Below, piece by piece: positions 15,236 through 20,946 of a stretch of DNA of 40,207 bases (the first letter of the stretch is position 1; each line of letters opens with the position of its first letter). The notes beneath the pieces were generated by a model that searched no databases, was not told where the DNA came from, and saw nothing but the letters and a program-made list of their open reading frames with translations. A program made the position numbers and the translations under genes. Source of the stretch: an uncultured Clostridia bacterium (GTDB lineage Bacteria > Bacillota > Clostridia > Christensenellales > Borkfalkiaceae); the NCBI GenBank assembly GCA_947626005.1, contig CANQQM010000010.1, positions 1 through 40,207 on the forward strand, read 5' to 3'.

Positions 15236-16210
15236 GTGAGGATCTGTGTCTATGGCGCAGGCGCGATGGGAACGTCGCTCGGCGCATTTTTGACGGAAGG
15301 CGGGACGGCGTGCGAGCTCATCTCGAGGAATGCCGAGCACATCGCGGCGCTCCGCGGACGGGGCGCGCGGATCGTCACGAAGAGCGAAGCGCGTACGGTG
15401 CCCGTGAAGGCGCTCCTTCCCGAGGAGATTTCGGGGAAGTACGACGTCGTCTTTCTTGCGACCAAACAGCGCGAAAACAGGGCGCTCCTTCCTCTTCTCT
15501 CCGAGCTTCTTCGCCCCGACGGGGTGCTCGTGACCGTTCAGAACGGGCTTCCCGAGCGGGAACTTTCCGAAGGGCTTTCAAACAGCGTCTATGGCGCGGT
15601 GCTCAGTTGGGGCGCCGAGCGCACGGAGGCGGGGACGGTGCGGGTGACCTCCGAGAGCGGCTACCGCTTGGCCCTCGGTGCATTCAATGAGGGCACGCGG
15701 CTCGAGGAGCTCAGAGCGCTCTTTTCGGGGAGCGCGATCGAGGCGGAAGTCGGGGATCTTCACGAGATCCGCTTTGCGAAACTTGCCGTCAACGCCTCTT
15801 TTTCCACCCTCTCAGCGATCTCGGGGCTGACGTTCGGGGAGATCGCCGCCCGTCATCGCCGCGACGCCGCCGAACTTTTGAAGGAAGTGTTCCGTGTCGC
15901 CCGCGCATACGGATGCAAACGCCTTCCGCTCAACGGACACGACCTCTTCCGCGTATTCAAAGTGCCGAGTCTCACCCTTCCCATTGCGATGAAAAAGTAC
16001 AGGGAGACGCGCTCGGGAATGCTCCTCGACCTCATGGCGGGGCGGCGCACGGACGTCGACTTCGTCGCGGGGGCGTGCGTTGCGGCGGGAAAGGCCCGCG
16101 GGGTGGAGACGCCGCTACTTCTTCGCGGGGTGGAGATCGTACACGAGATCGAAAACGGGCTTGCGGAGATCGCACCCGAAAGTCTGTACCTCTTACGAAC
16201 GAGAATTTAA
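15236..16210 (+). CDS. panE: Ketopantoate reductase family protein (2-dehydropantoate 2-reductase-like)
   Basis: A 324-residue protein starting at GTG 15236, supported by AGGAGA about 9 nt upstream and by the nucleotide-binding motif beginning immediately (MRICVYGAGAMGTSLG). The order matches PanE/ApbA: an N-terminal Rossmann fold with VFLATKQ and VQNGLPE, a central RFAKLAVNASFSTLSA segment holding the catalytic Lys, and a C-terminal helical domain with LLDLMAGRRTDVDFV. The family reduces 2-dehydropantoate to pantoate with NADPH in coenzyme A synthesis. No other pantothenate genes are nearby, so a related 2-oxoacid reductase role is possible. The gene is first in the operon, 10 nt before the TIR gene. 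Confidence 0.85.
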   Translation: MRICVYGAGAMGTSLGAFLTEGGTACELISRNAEHIAALRGRGARIVTKSEARTVPVKALLPEEISGKYDVVFLATKQRENRALLPLLSELLRPDGVLVTVQNGLPERELSEGLSNSVYGAVLSWGAERTEAGTVRVTSESGYRLALGAFNEGTRLEELRALFSGSAIEAEVGDLHEIRFAKLAVNASFSTLSAISGLTFGEIAARHRRDAAELLKEVFRVARAYGCKRLPLNGHDLFRVFKVPSLTLPIAMKKYRETRSGMLLDLMAGRRTDVDFVAGACVAAGKARGVETPLLLRGVEIVHEIENGLAEIAPESLYLLRTRI

Positions 16211-16220
16211 GGGGAAAACC

Positions 16221-17951
16221 ATGGAAGAATATGTACGCAGCGAATGTCCGTGCTGCAGCGCGCCCATCGATCCGAGCGCCGCGGTGCGCGGGGTATTGAC
16301 CTGCAAATATTGCGGAAACATCCTGACGATCCCGAAGGAGACATCGAATAAGGAGGCGCTCTCCTATCTTCGGCAGGGAGAACTTCTTCTCGACACGGGA
16401 AGATTTTCCGACGCGTGGTCGGCGTTTTTCAAGGCGTCCGAGATCGACGCGTCCGAGCCCGAGGCCTATTTCGGCATGGCGCGCGCCCGTTTCGGCGTAC
16501 GCTATCTGCGCGACGAGACGGCCGATCCGCCCTGTATTCGGCCGATTGCGGAGATCTTCTCGGAGGAACGTTTCTCCGAGGACAAGGACTTCCGCCGCGC
16601 CCTCGAGACGGCGACCTTCGAACAGGCAGACGAATATCGGCGGAAGGCGGGGGAGATCGACCGCATCCATGACGAATTTCTCCGCCTCAAAAAGGCAGGC
16701 GTTTCCTACGACTGTTTCCTCTGCGTCAAGGTGACTTCGGAAAGCGGCATGACGACGCAAGACAGCCACGAAGCGCTCAAGCTCTATCATTTTTTACAGC
16801 GCGAAGGGTACCGCCCCTTCTATTCGGAGGTGGAGACGGGAGAGCGCGCCGGGGTCGACTATGAGGCGCTCATCCTGTATGCGCTCTATTCTTCGGACTG
16901 CATGGTGGTCGTCTGCTCCAACGAGGAATATCTGCGCACCAAGTGGGTGAGCAACGAATACAAGCGCTTTCTGCACCTCATCGCCGATGAGGAAAAGGAG
17001 CGCGACGCCGTCACGATCGCCTACCTCGGCAAGCCTGTCGAACGCCTTCCGGGGCGGGAGGGAAAGCTGCAGGGGGTCGATCTGTCCCGTCCCGACGCCT
17101 ATACGAAGATCCTGGCGTTCGTCGAGCGGCATACGCCCGCCGCACGGGAACGCCGCGGCAAGGCGCGGGAGGAGGCGCTCAGCGAGGCCGAGCGGCGGGA
17201 ACGCGAACTTTCCGAGCTTCGGATGAAGCTCGAACGGCTCGAAGAGGAACGCGCCGAGGCGAAAAAGGAGGAGGAAGATCACTTCTTCGACGACCTCACG
17301 CCCGAGGAACGGGCACGGCTCGAACGGAAGGAGGCGGAGCGTCGGCTTCGGGAGGGGATCGAACGAAAGATCCGAAGCGCCGTCGAGTTCACCATCGTCG
17401 GCGGCGTCCTCAAACGGTATAAAGGGCGGGGCGGGGAAGTCGTCATTCCGCCCGACGTCACGGAGATCGGCGAGGACGCCTTCCGCGGGAACGTTAAAGT
17501 GACTTCGGTCATGATCCCGTCCTCCGTCAAGGAAATTTCCGCACACGCCTTTTTCCGCTGTGAAAATCTGGCGCGCGTCGTTTTCGGCGAAGGGCTGACG
17601 GTGATCGGGAAGGAAGCATTCGCCGAATGCATCCGCCTGACCGCGGCGCCGCTTCCCGACACGATCCGAGAGATCGGCGTAAAAGCCTTTTCCCGCTGTG
17701 AGCGGCTCGAGGACGTTCGTCTCCCCGACGGGCTCTACAGGGTCGAGGACAAGGCGTTTTCCGAATGCAAACGGCTCAGCGGGGTGCTCGTTCCCGAAGT
17801 TACGCACATGGGGAAGAACATCTTCCGCGGCGGTGGGGAGGAGTTAACGCTCTTCTGTAAGCCCGCCGCGCGCCCCAAGAAATGGAAACGCGGTTGGTGC
17901 AAGCGCGGATGCGTCAAAAAATATGCAGTCGTCTGGAATTACCGCGGCTGA
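16221..17951 (+). CDS. Zinc ribbon-TIR-coiled coil-leucine-rich repeat protein
   Basis: A 576-residue multidomain protein (ATG 16221 after AAGGGG). An N-terminal zinc ribbon (Cys9, Cys12, Cys28, Cys31) is followed by a short TPR-like helical part (about 45-95). A TIR domain (about 160-290) opens with YDCFLCVKV, contains SDCMVVVCSNEEY and ends KWVSNEYKRFL. Glu246 there aligns with the catalytic Glu of TIR NADases (the WVHKEI region of SARM1). A charged coiled coil (about 310-385) leads to BspA-type LRR_5 repeats (about 387-540; IPSSVKEISAHAFFRCENL and similar). The C-terminus is Lys/Arg/Cys/Trp-rich. No signal peptide, so cytoplasmic. NAD cleavage on ligand sensing is inference. It sits between panE and gltX in the operon. 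Confidence 0.85.
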   Translation: MEEYVRSECPCCSAPIDPSAAVRGVLTCKYCGNILTIPKETSNKEALSYLRQGELLLDTGRFSDAWSAFFKASEIDASEPEAYFGMARARFGVRYLRDETADPPCIRPIAEIFSEERFSEDKDFRRALETATFEQADEYRRKAGEIDRIHDEFLRLKKAGVSYDCFLCVKVTSESGMTTQDSHEALKLYHFLQREGYRPFYSEVETGERAGVDYEALILYALYSSDCMVVVCSNEEYLRTKWVSNEYKRFLHLIADEEKERDAVTIAYLGKPVERLPGREGKLQGVDLSRPDAYTKILAFVERHTPAARERRGKAREEALSEAERRERELSELRMKLERLEEERAEAKKEEEDHFFDDLTPEERARLERKEAERRLREGIERKIRSAVEFTIVGGVLKRYKGRGGEVVIPPDVTEIGEDAFRGNVKVTSVMIPSSVKEISAHAFFRCENLARVVFGEGLTVIGKEAFAECIRLTAAPLPDTIREIGVKAFSRCERLEDVRLPDGLYRVEDKAFSECKRLSGVLVPEVTHMGKNIFRGGGEELTLFCKPAARPKKWKRGWCKRGCVKKYAVVWNYRG

Positions 17952-17965
17952 AGGGAGAGGAGAAT

Positions 17966-19615
17966 ATGGACTATCAAAAACTTGCGGAGCGGCTCTTGCC
18001 CGGCGAATATCCTTCGCCCGAATTCTATGAAGAAAAATATCCCCCGCGCAACCTTCCCGAAAAGGCGGAAGTCACGCGGCTTGCTCCGTCGCCGACGGGA
18101 TTCATCCACCTCGGCAATCTTTTTGCGGCGATCGCGAACGAGCGGGTCGCCCATAGAAACGGCGGCGTTTTATATCTTCGCATCGAAGATACCGACTTAA
18201 AGCGGAAAGTGGACGGCGCGGTCGAGGCGGTCATCCGTGCGCTCAAGTATTTCGATATCACCTTCGATGAGGGCGCTGAGATCGGCGGGAACGACGCTTA
18301 CGCCCCCTGGTATCAGCGTCAGCGCGCCGAAATTTACCGTACGTTCGTCAAAAAGCTCATCGCCGAGGGGAGGGCGTACCCTTGCTTCTGCACCGAGGAG
18401 GAGCTCTCCGCCCTCCGCGAAGAGCAGACCGCCAAAAAGGAGATCACGGGCTATTACGGCAAGTACGCCAAGTGCCGCAACCTTTCCGAGGAGGAGATCT
18501 ATAAGAACCTCGACGAGGGCAAGCCCTTCGTTATCCGCCTCAAGTCCCTCGGCGACCCGAAGAACAAAATCACCTTCCGCGATGCGATCAAAGGGGAGAT
18601 CACGGTCACGGAGAACGATCAGGACGTCGTCATTCTGAAGTCGGACGGCATTCCCACCTATCATTTCGCCCATGCGATCGACGATCATTTCATGCGGACG
18701 ACGCTCGTCATCCGCGGGGAGGAGTGGCTTGCCTCTCTTCCCATTCACCTCGAACTCTTCGACGCGCTCGGCTTCCGCCGTCCGCGCTACGGGCACAACT
18801 GTTCGCTCATGAAGCAGGACGGTGAGACCCGCCGCAAGCTCTCCAAGCGCAAGGACCCCGAGCTTTCCCTCGAATTTTACAGAAAAGAGGGGTACTATCC
18901 CCGCGCCGTCAAGGTGTACATGCTCACCCTCCTCAATTCCAACTTCGAGGAGTGGTACCAAAAGAATCCCGACGCCGACCTCGCGGAATTCCCCTTCAAG
19001 GTCGAAAAGATGGGGAAGAGCGGCACGCTCTTCGACCTCGACAAGCTCAACGACATTTCGAAGAACGAACTTTCGAAGCTCACGGAGAGGCAAATGGCGG
19101 ACTTTCTCCGCGGTTGGGCGGAGGAGTTCGGCACCGAGGCGCAGCGCGCTTACTTCAAGGAGGAGGAAAAACTCCTTGCGGCGCTTACGCTCTGCATGGG
19201 GATCGGCGGAAAGAAGCGCAGAAAGGACTTTAAGACGGCTTCTCAGGCAATGGAATTTCTCTCTTACTTCTTTGCCGCTCCCGAAAGCTACGACGAGTCG
19301 GGCCTCGACCTTAAAACGAGGAAGACGATCGCGGAGGAGTTCCTTGCCGTGTATTCCTATGAGGACGACGCCGCGGCGTGGTTTTCGAAGGTCCGTTCGA
19401 TCGCCGAAAAGTACGGCTTCGCAACGGATATGAAGGAATATAAACTTAGCCCCGAAAGCTACAAGGGGAGCGTTGCGGACGTCGCGGAGGTGCTTCGGAT
19501 CGCCACGACGGGCAAGGCAAACACCCCCGATCTTTGGACCATTCAGCACATTTTGGGGGAGAAGGAGACGCGTTCCCGCCTGAAGAACGCCGTTTCCGCA
19601 TGGGAGAAAGCATGA
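17966..19615 (+). CDS. gltX: Glutamate-tRNA ligase (GluRS)
   Basis: A 549-residue class I aminoacyl-tRNA synthetase. The ATG at 17966 follows GGAGAGGAG. The HIGH box appears as APSPTGFIHLGN (about 43-54), with YLRIEDTDLKRKVDGA after it, and the KMSKS box is KLSKRKDPE. Discrimination from GlnRS rests on LAPSPTGFIHLGN and the overall GluRS layout; the C-terminal anticodon-binding part is helical and Lys/Glu-rich. It charges tRNA-Glu, and a non-discriminating activity on tRNA-Gln is possible but cannot be decided here. It overlaps thyA by 4 bp (ATGA), so translation is probably coupled. Confidence 0.93.
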   Translation: MDYQKLAERLLPGEYPSPEFYEEKYPPRNLPEKAEVTRLAPSPTGFIHLGNLFAAIANERVAHRNGGVLYLRIEDTDLKRKVDGAVEAVIRALKYFDITFDEGAEIGGNDAYAPWYQRQRAEIYRTFVKKLIAEGRAYPCFCTEEELSALREEQTAKKEITGYYGKYAKCRNLSEEEIYKNLDEGKPFVIRLKSLGDPKNKITFRDAIKGEITVTENDQDVVILKSDGIPTYHFAHAIDDHFMRTTLVIRGEEWLASLPIHLELFDALGFRRPRYGHNCSLMKQDGETRRKLSKRKDPELSLEFYRKEGYYPRAVKVYMLTLLNSNFEEWYQKNPDADLAEFPFKVEKMGKSGTLFDLDKLNDISKNELSKLTERQMADFLRGWAEEFGTEAQRAYFKEEEKLLAALTLCMGIGGKKRRKDFKTASQAMEFLSYFFAAPESYDESGLDLKTRKTIAEEFLAVYSYEDDAAAWFSKVRSIAEKYGFATDMKEYKLSPESYKGSVADVAEVLRIATTGKANTPDLWTIQHILGEKETRSRLKNAVSAWEKA

Positions 19616-20442
19616 GCAGAGCCGACGAGATCTTCATTGCAAATTGCAAGGATATCCTCGAAAACGGGGTTTGGGACACGGATCTTTCCGTCCGCCCGCA
19701 CTGGGAGGACGGGACGCCCGCGCACACCGTCAAGAAGTTCGGGATCATCAACCGCTACAATTTGCAGGAGGAATTTCCCATTCAGACCATCCGCCGCTGC
19801 GCCTTCAAGAGCTGCGTCGACGAGATCCTCTGGATCTGGCAGAAAAAGAGCAACAACATCCGCGACCTCCATTCCCACATCTGGGACAGCTGGGCGGACG
19901 AGAGCGGAAGCATCGGCAAGGCGTACGGCTATCAGCTTGCGCAGAAGTCCAAATACGCGGAAGGGGAGTTCGATCAGGTCGACCGCGTGCTCTACGACCT
20001 CAAGCACAATCCCGCCTCGCGTCGGATCCTTACAAACCTCTACAACTTTTCCGACCTCCACGAGATGCACCTCTATCCCTGCGCATATTCTGTGACCTTC
20101 AACGTCTCGGGGGACACGCTGAACGCCATCCTCAACCAGCGTTCGAACGACATGCTCACCGCAAACAACTGGAACGTCGTGCAGTATGCCGTCCTTCTTG
20201 TCATGTTTGCGCAAGTTTCGGGGCTGAAGGCGGGGGAGCTCGTGCACGTCATCGCCGACGCCCACCTCTACGACCGCCACATTCCCATTTTGCAAAAAGT
20301 GCTTGAAAACGAGCCGAAGAAGGCGCCGAAACTTGTCGTCGACCCGACGGTTACGAACTTCTACGACTTCACGGTGGACAGCTTCCGCCTCGAGGGGTAC
20401 GAGTATTCTCCGCTCGATGCGAAGATCCCCGTCGCCATTTGA
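19612..20442 (+). CDS. thyA: Thymidylate synthase
   Basis: A 276-residue ThyA-type enzyme starting at ATG 19612, inside the gltX stop (ATGA overlap). It converts dUMP to dTMP with methylenetetrahydrofolate. Landmarks are the N-terminal RPHWEDGTPAHTVKKFG, the catalytic Cys in LYPCAYSVTFNV, the dUMP-binding LNQRSNDMLTANNWNVVQYA and the late DAHLYDRHIPILQKV. The catalytic loop reads PCAYS where many ThyA proteins have PCH, a modest departure. The next gene is dihydrofolate reductase, which recycles the dihydrofolate made by this enzyme, so gene order and chemistry agree. Confidence 0.96.
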   Translation: MSRADEIFIANCKDILENGVWDTDLSVRPHWEDGTPAHTVKKFGIINRYNLQEEFPIQTIRRCAFKSCVDEILWIWQKKSNNIRDLHSHIWDSWADESGSIGKAYGYQLAQKSKYAEGEFDQVDRVLYDLKHNPASRRILTNLYNFSDLHEMHLYPCAYSVTFNVSGDTLNAILNQRSNDMLTANNWNVVQYAVLLVMFAQVSGLKAGELVHVIADAHLYDRHIPILQKVLENEPKKAPKLVVDPTVTNFYDFTVDSFRLEGYEYSPLDAKIPVAI

Positions 20443-20451
20443 GAGGAAATC

Positions 20452-20946
20452 ATGAAGGCCATTTTCCACGCGGATAAAAACTGGGGGATCGGAAAGGGGA
20501 ACGGCTTGATGTTCTCCCTTCCCAAGGACATGAAGTTCTTCCGCACGGCGACGACGGGGAAGGTCGTCGTCATGGGGAGGAATACCCTGCGCTCCTTTCC
20601 GGGCGGGAGGCCCCTCAAAAACCGCACAAACATCGTGCTCTGCCCCGAAACGGTGGAGGATGTTCTCACCGTTCATTCCCTCGAAGAGCTCTTTGCGGAG
20701 GTCAAAAAGTATCCCGAGGAGGACGTCTTTGTCATCGGCGGGGCAAGCGTGTACCGCGAACTTCTTCCCTATTGCAGGGAGGTTTTGGTGACGAAAGTGG
20801 ACGCGGACGGGGGTGCGGATGTGTTTGTCCCCGACCTCGACAGGGAGAAAAACTTCGAGCTCGTCTCTGAAAGCGCCCCCGAAGAGGACAACGGCTACAC
20901 GATTCGCTTCTGCACCTATCGCAACAACGCCGTAAAACAGTTTTGA
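20452..20946 (+). CDS. folA: Dihydrofolate reductase
   Basis: A 164-residue protein of normal DHFR length, ATG 20452 after GAGGAAATC and 9 nt after thyA. Landmarks are ADKNWGIGKGNGLMFSLPKDMKFF (active-site loop with the acidic Asp in LPKDMKFF), VVMGRNTLRSFPGGRPL for NADPH binding, and VIGGASVYRELLP. It reduces dihydrofolate to tetrahydrofolate. Last gene of the operon; a strong terminator begins 10 nt after the stop. Confidence 0.96.
   Translation: MKAIFHADKNWGIGKGNGLMFSLPKDMKFFRTATTGKVVVMGRNTLRSFPGGRPLKNRTNIVLCPETVEDVLTVHSLEELFAEVKKYPEEDVFVIGGASVYRELLPYCREVLVTKVDADGGADVFVPDLDREKNFELVSESAPEEDNGYTIRFCTYRNNAVKQF

Follow-up and report, generated by a model that had tools for sequence, protein, structure and literature searches.

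The stretch of DNA analysed here (the window, 40,207 nucleotides) carries on its plus strand, at 16221..17951, a gene whose translation and Pfam matches give the layout zinc ribbon (ZnR)-TPR-TIR-linker-LRR_5. The frame encodes 576 amino acids from an ATG with zero internal stops. The ATG at 16221 is the gene caller's choice and agrees with the original prediction; in a mechanical list of open reading frames, the same frame begins further upstream, at a TTG at 16080. The gene lies 10 bases from an upstream panE/apbA-like gene with a GTG start (15236..16210) and 14 bases from gltX (17966..19615), which is followed by thyA (19612..20442), folA (20452..20946) and bipA, all on the same strand. Pfam confirmed panE, gltX, thyA and folA as the neighbours named from the sequence beforehand, and a Pfam scan of a subset of the window's neighbouring genes recognised no defence gene.

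The protein begins with a Cys4 zinc ribbon (residues 9-31, 16245..16313), recognised from its sequence and conservation. Its four cysteines are paired at 9/12 and 28/31. No row of the 79-row alignment A1 departs from C28 or C31, and conservation at C9 and C12 is 90% or higher. A1 comprises 79 of the proteins P0001-P0088, query included, the nine left out being near duplicates, partial proteins or the TIR-less P0085. An above-cut-off Pfam match to the ribbon is absent in the window protein (zf-BED, 17.4 bits vs a cut-off of 20.6). A TPR-like helical segment follows (approximately residues 49-96, 16365..16508); TPR_11 and TPR_14 fall below cut-off in the window protein alone, and the family profile matches TPR structures. 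The TIR domain spans approximately residues 157-305 (16689..17135), with a TIR_2 match at residues 179-293 of 43.1 bits against a cut-off of 28, and TIR_2 was matched by all 43 TIR slices of the family. Next comes a charged linker (residues 305-395, 17136..17405), where the variable region starts; its 91 residues include 27 acidic and 24 basic ones, a composition from which we infer a probable coiled coil. The variable tail contains BspA-type LRR_5 repeats (approximately residues 406-537, 17436..17831; Pfam match at 414-536, 95 bits vs a cut-off of 27.7), of which the LRR_5-type solved structures 4fs7 and 4gt6 are homologues. The TIR_2 and LRR_5 matches are not due to chance. Cys pairs, TIR_2 and LRR_5 thus bear out the proposal that ribbon, TIR and repeats share one 576-residue chain; the proposed domain order stands for the parts it named and had missed the TPR-like segment between ribbon and TIR, and of the proposed charged coiled coil the charge was confirmed, the coiled coil itself being read from composition. 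A Pfam scan (E up to 1) found no NB-ARC, NACHT or other STAND NTPase in the window protein. Neither a signal peptide nor a membrane anchor was found in a hydropathy scan: the N-terminus is the zinc ribbon, with no hydrophobic signal seen, and the top 19-residue hydropathy (1.42) lies inside the TIR domain.

The TIR domain and its invariant glutamate

Glu246 (16956..16958, plus strand) is the putative NADase catalytic residue. The original prediction had placed it at the catalytic position of TIR NADases and had named loss of this residue among homologues as an outcome that would count against the idea; the opposite was found. W242, V243, N245 and E246, within the motif KWVSNEYKRF, are invariant in 79/79 rows of A1, and W[VM]xxE occurs downstream of a YEAxI[LF]YA motif in 116/116 fetched motif-bearing proteins. 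Two genes outside A1 keep the W and E and have M in place of V243, one of them also S in place of N245. The wider ZnR-TPR-TIR family retains the Glu in 38/38 slices, obtained from 42 loci (L012 and L301 being one gene).

Profile A3, built from 32 TIRs of near and remote family members, matched TIR domains of the plant proteins RUN1 (E 1.5e-5), ROQ1 and RPV1. The alignments printed for RUN1 and ROQ1 place the family Glu on the plant Glu, the RUN1 motif being WCLDE. By our own count the aligned RUN1 Glu is chain position 81, which would be E100 if the construct consists of residues 23-198 and three tag residues. RUN1 E100 is described as the putative catalytic Glu in the parts of PMC7282519 available to us, where NADase function is said to need this Glu in all examined prokaryotic TIRs. 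Given the invariance of Glu246, the Glu-on-Glu alignment with RUN1 and this precedent, NADase catalysis by the TIR domain with Glu246 is likely. The plant match came from the A3 profile. PDB searches with single TIR sequences yielded nothing above chance level, and in a first TIR profile search designed PPR repeats ranked highest, RUN1 reaching E 0.0078.

We also compared the family with models of defence genes. In PADLOC, zero families were matched by the full window protein (E up to 0.1) or by its TIR slice, and the slice scored 17.6 bits against NCBIfam ThcB4, for which the cut-off is 220. Weak matches were obtained with the wider-family TIR slices of A3, to candidate PDC-S66 (23/32), ThcB4 (26/32) and a TIR-retron model (11/32). 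Among ten full-length members, none matched an NCBIfam TIR-family model at E up to 1e-5, and four gave weak PADLOC matches, neither close-family member being among those four.

TIR genes at housekeeping junctions

The company of panE, gltX, thyA and folA had suggested a role in normal physiology, a suggestion that comparison with relatives did not support. gltX was found in 23 of the 41 genomes searched, and gltX with the adjacent thyA could be read in 20 of the 22 other genus genomes that have gltX (21 with the window). A TIR gene lies between panE and gltX in the window only and between gltX and thyA in two relatives (G003 and G014); the remaining 18 of the 21 genomes have it at neither junction. 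Upstream of gltX the genomes differ: no panE was found nearby in G009, G002 and G019, and in 7 of the 20 genus genomes gltX is preceded by a different gene, of ~240 aa. Further along, between folA and bipA, several genus members carry a two-gene accessory module encoding ~620-640 aa and 223 aa (L165, L174).

Other junctions house relatives of the window gene. In the window's own genome, a second close copy lies between miaB and mutS, with gaps of 13 and 12 bases, and a third between a deaminase gene and a cyclophilin gene followed by purB, with gaps of 0 and 14. Thirty loci were read per junction, taken from the best-matching genomes and hence no random sample. For miaB (best 30 of 56 matching genomes, own included), a TIR core came next in 4, mutS followed within 9-69 bases in 24 and 406 bases on in one, and one locus ended at a contig edge. 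For ruvA (best 30 of 56), a TIR core came next in 2 and ruvB within 7-84 bases in 25. For the cyclophilin gene (best 30 of 55), the deaminase gene lay within 0-61 bases in 27, one locus was at a contig edge, and in G000 and G213 a TIR gene preceded cyclophilin. Altogether, TIR genes were seen at miaB|mutS in G000, G012, G014, L071 and L085 (and next to mutS, at a contig edge, in G003), at deaminase|cyclophilin in G000, G003, G014, L074 and L131, and at ruvA|ruvB in G012, L132 and L134. Since the TIR gene is optional at conserved junctions and its relatives occur in unrelated operons, we rejected the housekeeping neighbours as a clue to function.

These observations bear on the possibility that the protein is a physiological regulator, its tail sensing a metabolite or internal stress and its TIR domain tuning NAD+ or signalling together with translation, folate or repair operons. 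TIR genes beside gltX, thyA, mutS, ruvAB and the cyclophilin-purB pair fit such a role, as does one class of tails that is bL12-like (see below). However, the junctions are mostly TIR-free (4/30 miaB and 2/30 ruvA loci occupied among the best-matching genomes), near-identical cores serve unrelated operons, and tight placement, defined as having a gene of the same direction no more than 40 bases away on each side, is no commoner for TIR genes (13/59) than for other genes (121/554), so that a preference for tight operons was not found. We consider the regulator rather unlikely. Co-direction with neighbours was seen at 135/171 TIR gene ends (duplicate loci included) vs 519/677 for other genes.

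Copies at the same site do not form one clade. They were scattered in a core tree of 68 rows, which left out genes scoring below 200 bits and five rows with a core piece of less than 230 residues. With groups defined by site after the tree was seen, the AU test rejected a single clade for gltX|thyA (p 1.5e-8), miaB|mutS (p 3e-57) and deaminase|cyclophilin (p 0.0096, without L131). Nor did tails follow site, a proposal rejected because median tail identity was 0.40 within sites (29 pairs) and 0.39 both within genomes (10 pairs) and among the other 97 pairs.

Such a pattern could also arise from a spreading family of gene cassettes, for which operon junctions would be a favourable niche and benefit to the host secondary. 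The same junctions are occupied in several genomes by copies that do not form one clade, and the insertions appear to consist of a gene plus its ribosome site, the printed junctions containing ribosome-site-like stretches and no insertion-end repeats visible by eye. Genes of ~265 aa that resemble lone LRR-type genes (LRR_5 by eye) lie between ruvA and ruvB in three genomes (L239, L243 and L252, in G034, G002 and G213); such genes without a TIR domain therefore also occur in housekeeping operons. Against a cassette, neither a recombinase nor end repeats were noticed on unsystematic inspection, and the conserved catalytic motif and a core dN/dS of 0.04-0.27 in a set of orthologous pairs argue for selection on function. 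We regard this explanation as unlikely.

A constant core and variable tails

A search with the whole protein returned 148 homologues, 120 of them among the matches listed, and residues 1-310 as query returned 114 core homologues in a search that could find only proteins of ~317-1008 aa. Precomputed LRR_5 annotation was present in 65 of the 114 and absent in 49 (hand count). The survey of homologues that had been proposed showed that the domain core recurs, with tails and gene neighbours varying. The family is not spread evenly: with the core query at E 1e-15, matches were found in 25 of 151 genomes of the same taxonomic family, own included, with up to 9 matches each, and at class level in 21 of 391 genomes, own included, the others at 26-32% identity. 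In 15 of 76 loci no TIR gene was recovered, probably because the gene caller had been trained on the window. No homologues were found in phage records, plasmids or viral contigs. The window's genome contains four matches to the TIR profile A2, the three close copies and a distant one; this fourth TIR gene (L004:494-2833) encodes ZnR-TPR-TIR followed, by eye, by a membrane helix and LRR_5-like repeats.

Tails other than LRR_5 include TPR with membrane helices, bL12-like and Fe-S classes. The bL12-like tail of P0060 matched TIGR00855 at 120.9 bits, and the tail of P0150 consists of a membrane helix followed by Flg_new and an M23 peptidase. Several unusual fusions were noted: ZnR-TPR-TIR cores joined to domains like ribosomal protein bL12 in P0058, P0060 and P0062, with two such stretches in P0060; a 4Fe-4S ferredoxin (Fer4) between the TIR core and the LRR_5 repeats in P0014 (L090); and, by eye, a second ZnR-TIR module ahead of LRR_5 in P0056. 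In a hydropathy scan, a TM-like stretch was present in the tail of 44/118 proteins and in the core of 3/118. A membrane helix followed by further domains, such as the peptidase of P0150 or LRR_5 (P0061, P0081 and, by eye, L004), might be expected if the family served self/non-self or kin recognition between gut bacteria instead of antiphage defence, with tails reading the molecules of competitors. However, 74 of the 118 tails, that of the window protein included, are without a TM-like stretch, and this role appears improbable.

The contrast between core and tail is the main finding of this study: judged from the sequences compared, these proteins are a multicopy family in which a ZnR-TPR-TIR core of ~300 aa stays constant and the tails vary. 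Among 118 proteins, with pairs prefiltered by shared words and tail length, 72 non-independent pairs had a core identity of at least 80%. The best local tail identity was below 70% in 56 of them; in 70 pairs the tail was less alike than the core, and in 2 it was more alike. In close paralogues, identity drops from about the charged linker onward. Two copies in G003 (C81 at deaminase|cyclophilin and C22 at gltX|thyA) share 95% of the core over 297 aa and 45% of the tail over 513, and a third, cut at a contig edge, is 98-99% identical over the 175 core residues present and 35-53% in the tail. The G012 copies C5 and C16 have a core identity of 97% and a best local tail identity of 51%; in a global alignment scored in 50-aa steps, identity is 88-100% up to residue 350 and 0-55% beyond. 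At the DNA level, such comparisons are mosaic, with exact runs of up to 162 bases amid diverged stretches. Only nine repeats could be anchored, too few for mapping the variation onto LRR positions.

Most of the genomes compared are metagenome-assembled genomes (MAGs), in which short-read mis-assembly of a repeated core could yield copies with the same core and different tails. Several copies do lie near contig ends, and the reversed pair P0023/P0034, with a core identity of 89% and a tail identity of 100% over 382 aa, is either a recombinant or an assembly chimera. An artefact nevertheless seems very improbable as an explanation of the family. The L084 pair stands in tandem on one contig with 98% core identity, scattered core differences, and tails of 398 and 767 residues that are 59% identical over 320 residues; the loci L127 and L125, described next, share flanks on both sides; and P0138, from the genome of Pumilibacter muris strain CLA-AA-M08, shows the full architecture, which is therefore not confined to MAGs.

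Orthologous loci allowed the ages of core and tail to be compared with those of their surroundings. At L127/L125, where the flanks were also scanned against Pfam, dS is 0.22 (dN 0) in the upstream gene, 0.025 in the core, 0.46 (dN 0.17) in the tail and 0.36 (dN 0.011) in the downstream ABC-type ATPase gene, the dN of the tail being ~15 times that of the ATPase gene. The gene after the ATPase (L127:12131-15457, L125:4954-6762) is repetitive, with internal repeat matches, and is itself fast-changing (dS 0.65, dN 0.14), so that the tail is not the sole fast stretch at this locus. At L135/L136, the flanks have dS of 0.16 and 0.21 and the tail windows 0.33-2.4; five windows over residues 0-329 have dS of 0-0.20, and the central three 0-0.03. 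Since core dS is below flank dS in both pairs, the core is younger than the genes around it, hence recently homogenised or transferred, and the tail more diverged. Core and tail dS lacked this contrast at L132/L134 (0.44/0.52), G014 C13/L074 (0.63/0.70) and L127/L130 (0.91/1.36); recent homogenisation of the core, as read from dS, is apparent in two of the five orthologous pairs. Positive selection in the tails was considered and rejected, dN/dS being below 1 in each tail comparison with usable dS (~0.36 at L127/L125).

A proposed receptor family and its relation to known systems

The sequences contain the architecture, a conserved Glu, the contrast between core and tail and optional presence at conserved junctions. 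Taken together, they suggest to us, with a probability of a little under one half, that the proteins are TIR-NADase receptors, most likely antiphage, in which the signalling core is homogenised and the sensor tails diversify. The window gene would belong to a multicopy family of receptors, each encoded by a single gene and having a cytoplasmic part for signalling, in which zinc ribbon, TPR-like helices and TIR domain form the constant core and the C-terminal part, in the window protein an LRR_5 array, the variable sensor, a role for the tail that gains indirect support from the way core and tail have evolved. The tail would bind a ligand that is non-self, a phage component being the likeliest candidate; the receptor would self-associate through linker and core; and the TIR domain would consume NAD+ or make an ADP-ribose-type signal via Glu246, halting growth of the infected cell. 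Recombination between copies would homogenise the cores while tails are replaced and diversify, a uniform core serving a common output and the tails being selected for different ligands. TIR genes at housekeeping operon junctions may be co-transcribed with their neighbours.

Phage defence is the best-known setting of bacterial TIR NADases. For this reason, and because TIRs of the wider family weakly match defence models, we prefer a phage trigger, and an antiphage role appears the most likely one for the family. We propose more tentatively, with the odds somewhat against it, that the family constitutes an innate-immune repertoire whose TIR module is homogenised among copies and across species, whose recognition tails are rapidly replaced and which re-uses housekeeping junctions. 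If so, the repertoire strategy of plant and animal receptors would also operate in bacteria, via a single-gene TIR family, and the family would open a direct route to the ligands of bacterial LRRs. It is also a warning that defence-type genes can sit singly in housekeeping operons, outside the reach of island-based searches. Among the titles and abstract openings of the open-licence literature, we found no description of a ZnR-TPR-TIR-LRR_5 family.

The best-known bacterial TIR proteins belong to defined defence systems, among them Thoeris, in which the TIR protein ThsB works with the effector ThsA. The family resembles ThsB in being a bacterial TIR with a conserved Glu, and up to 8 of the 32 A3 TIR slices weakly match a ThsB model. 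In contrast, the window protein is a single chain with its own tail and with panE and gltX as neighbours, and neither it nor its TIR slice matches a ThsB model. A search for ThsA/STALD effectors gave zero matches in eight genomes and likewise zero in the control genomes. The wider ZnR-TPR-TIR proteins of Clostridia, to which L004 belongs, share the N-terminal order and a WVKNEW-type motif but only 24-35% TIR identity, and no curated NCBIfam family was found for the full-length ones tried. BspA-type LRR_5 proteins have the same repeats, with 4fs7 and 4gt6 as solved homologues. They are typically surface proteins, whereas the window repeats follow a TIR domain in a chain lacking a visible hydrophobic signal.

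Bacterial fusions of TIR to repeats or sensors share the joining of TIR to repeats (PMC9153377, PMC7075850). In the parts of these two papers accessible to us, actinobacterial group 6 TIRs are said often to have C-terminal TPRs, and neither a zinc-ribbon core nor LRR_5 tails nor a family with constant core and variable tails is mentioned. The hypervariable NTP-dependent conflict systems (Kaur et al., 2020, PMC7159879) likewise couple variable modules to effectors that include TIR, but are multi-gene and NTPase-centred or DGR-driven, and the present architecture is not described in the portion of that paper available. Plant TIR-NB-LRR receptors such as RUN1 and ROQ1 share the TIR Glu motif and C-terminal LRRs with the window protein. 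These receptors form multicopy families with fast-changing recognition parts. The window protein differs from them in having no NB-ARC/STAND NTPase, LRR_5 repeats, an N-terminal zinc ribbon with a TPR-like segment and a place in a bacterial operon; a repertoire of the kind proposed here would in principle give prokaryotes an equivalent of constant/variable receptor families that works without the NTPase switch.
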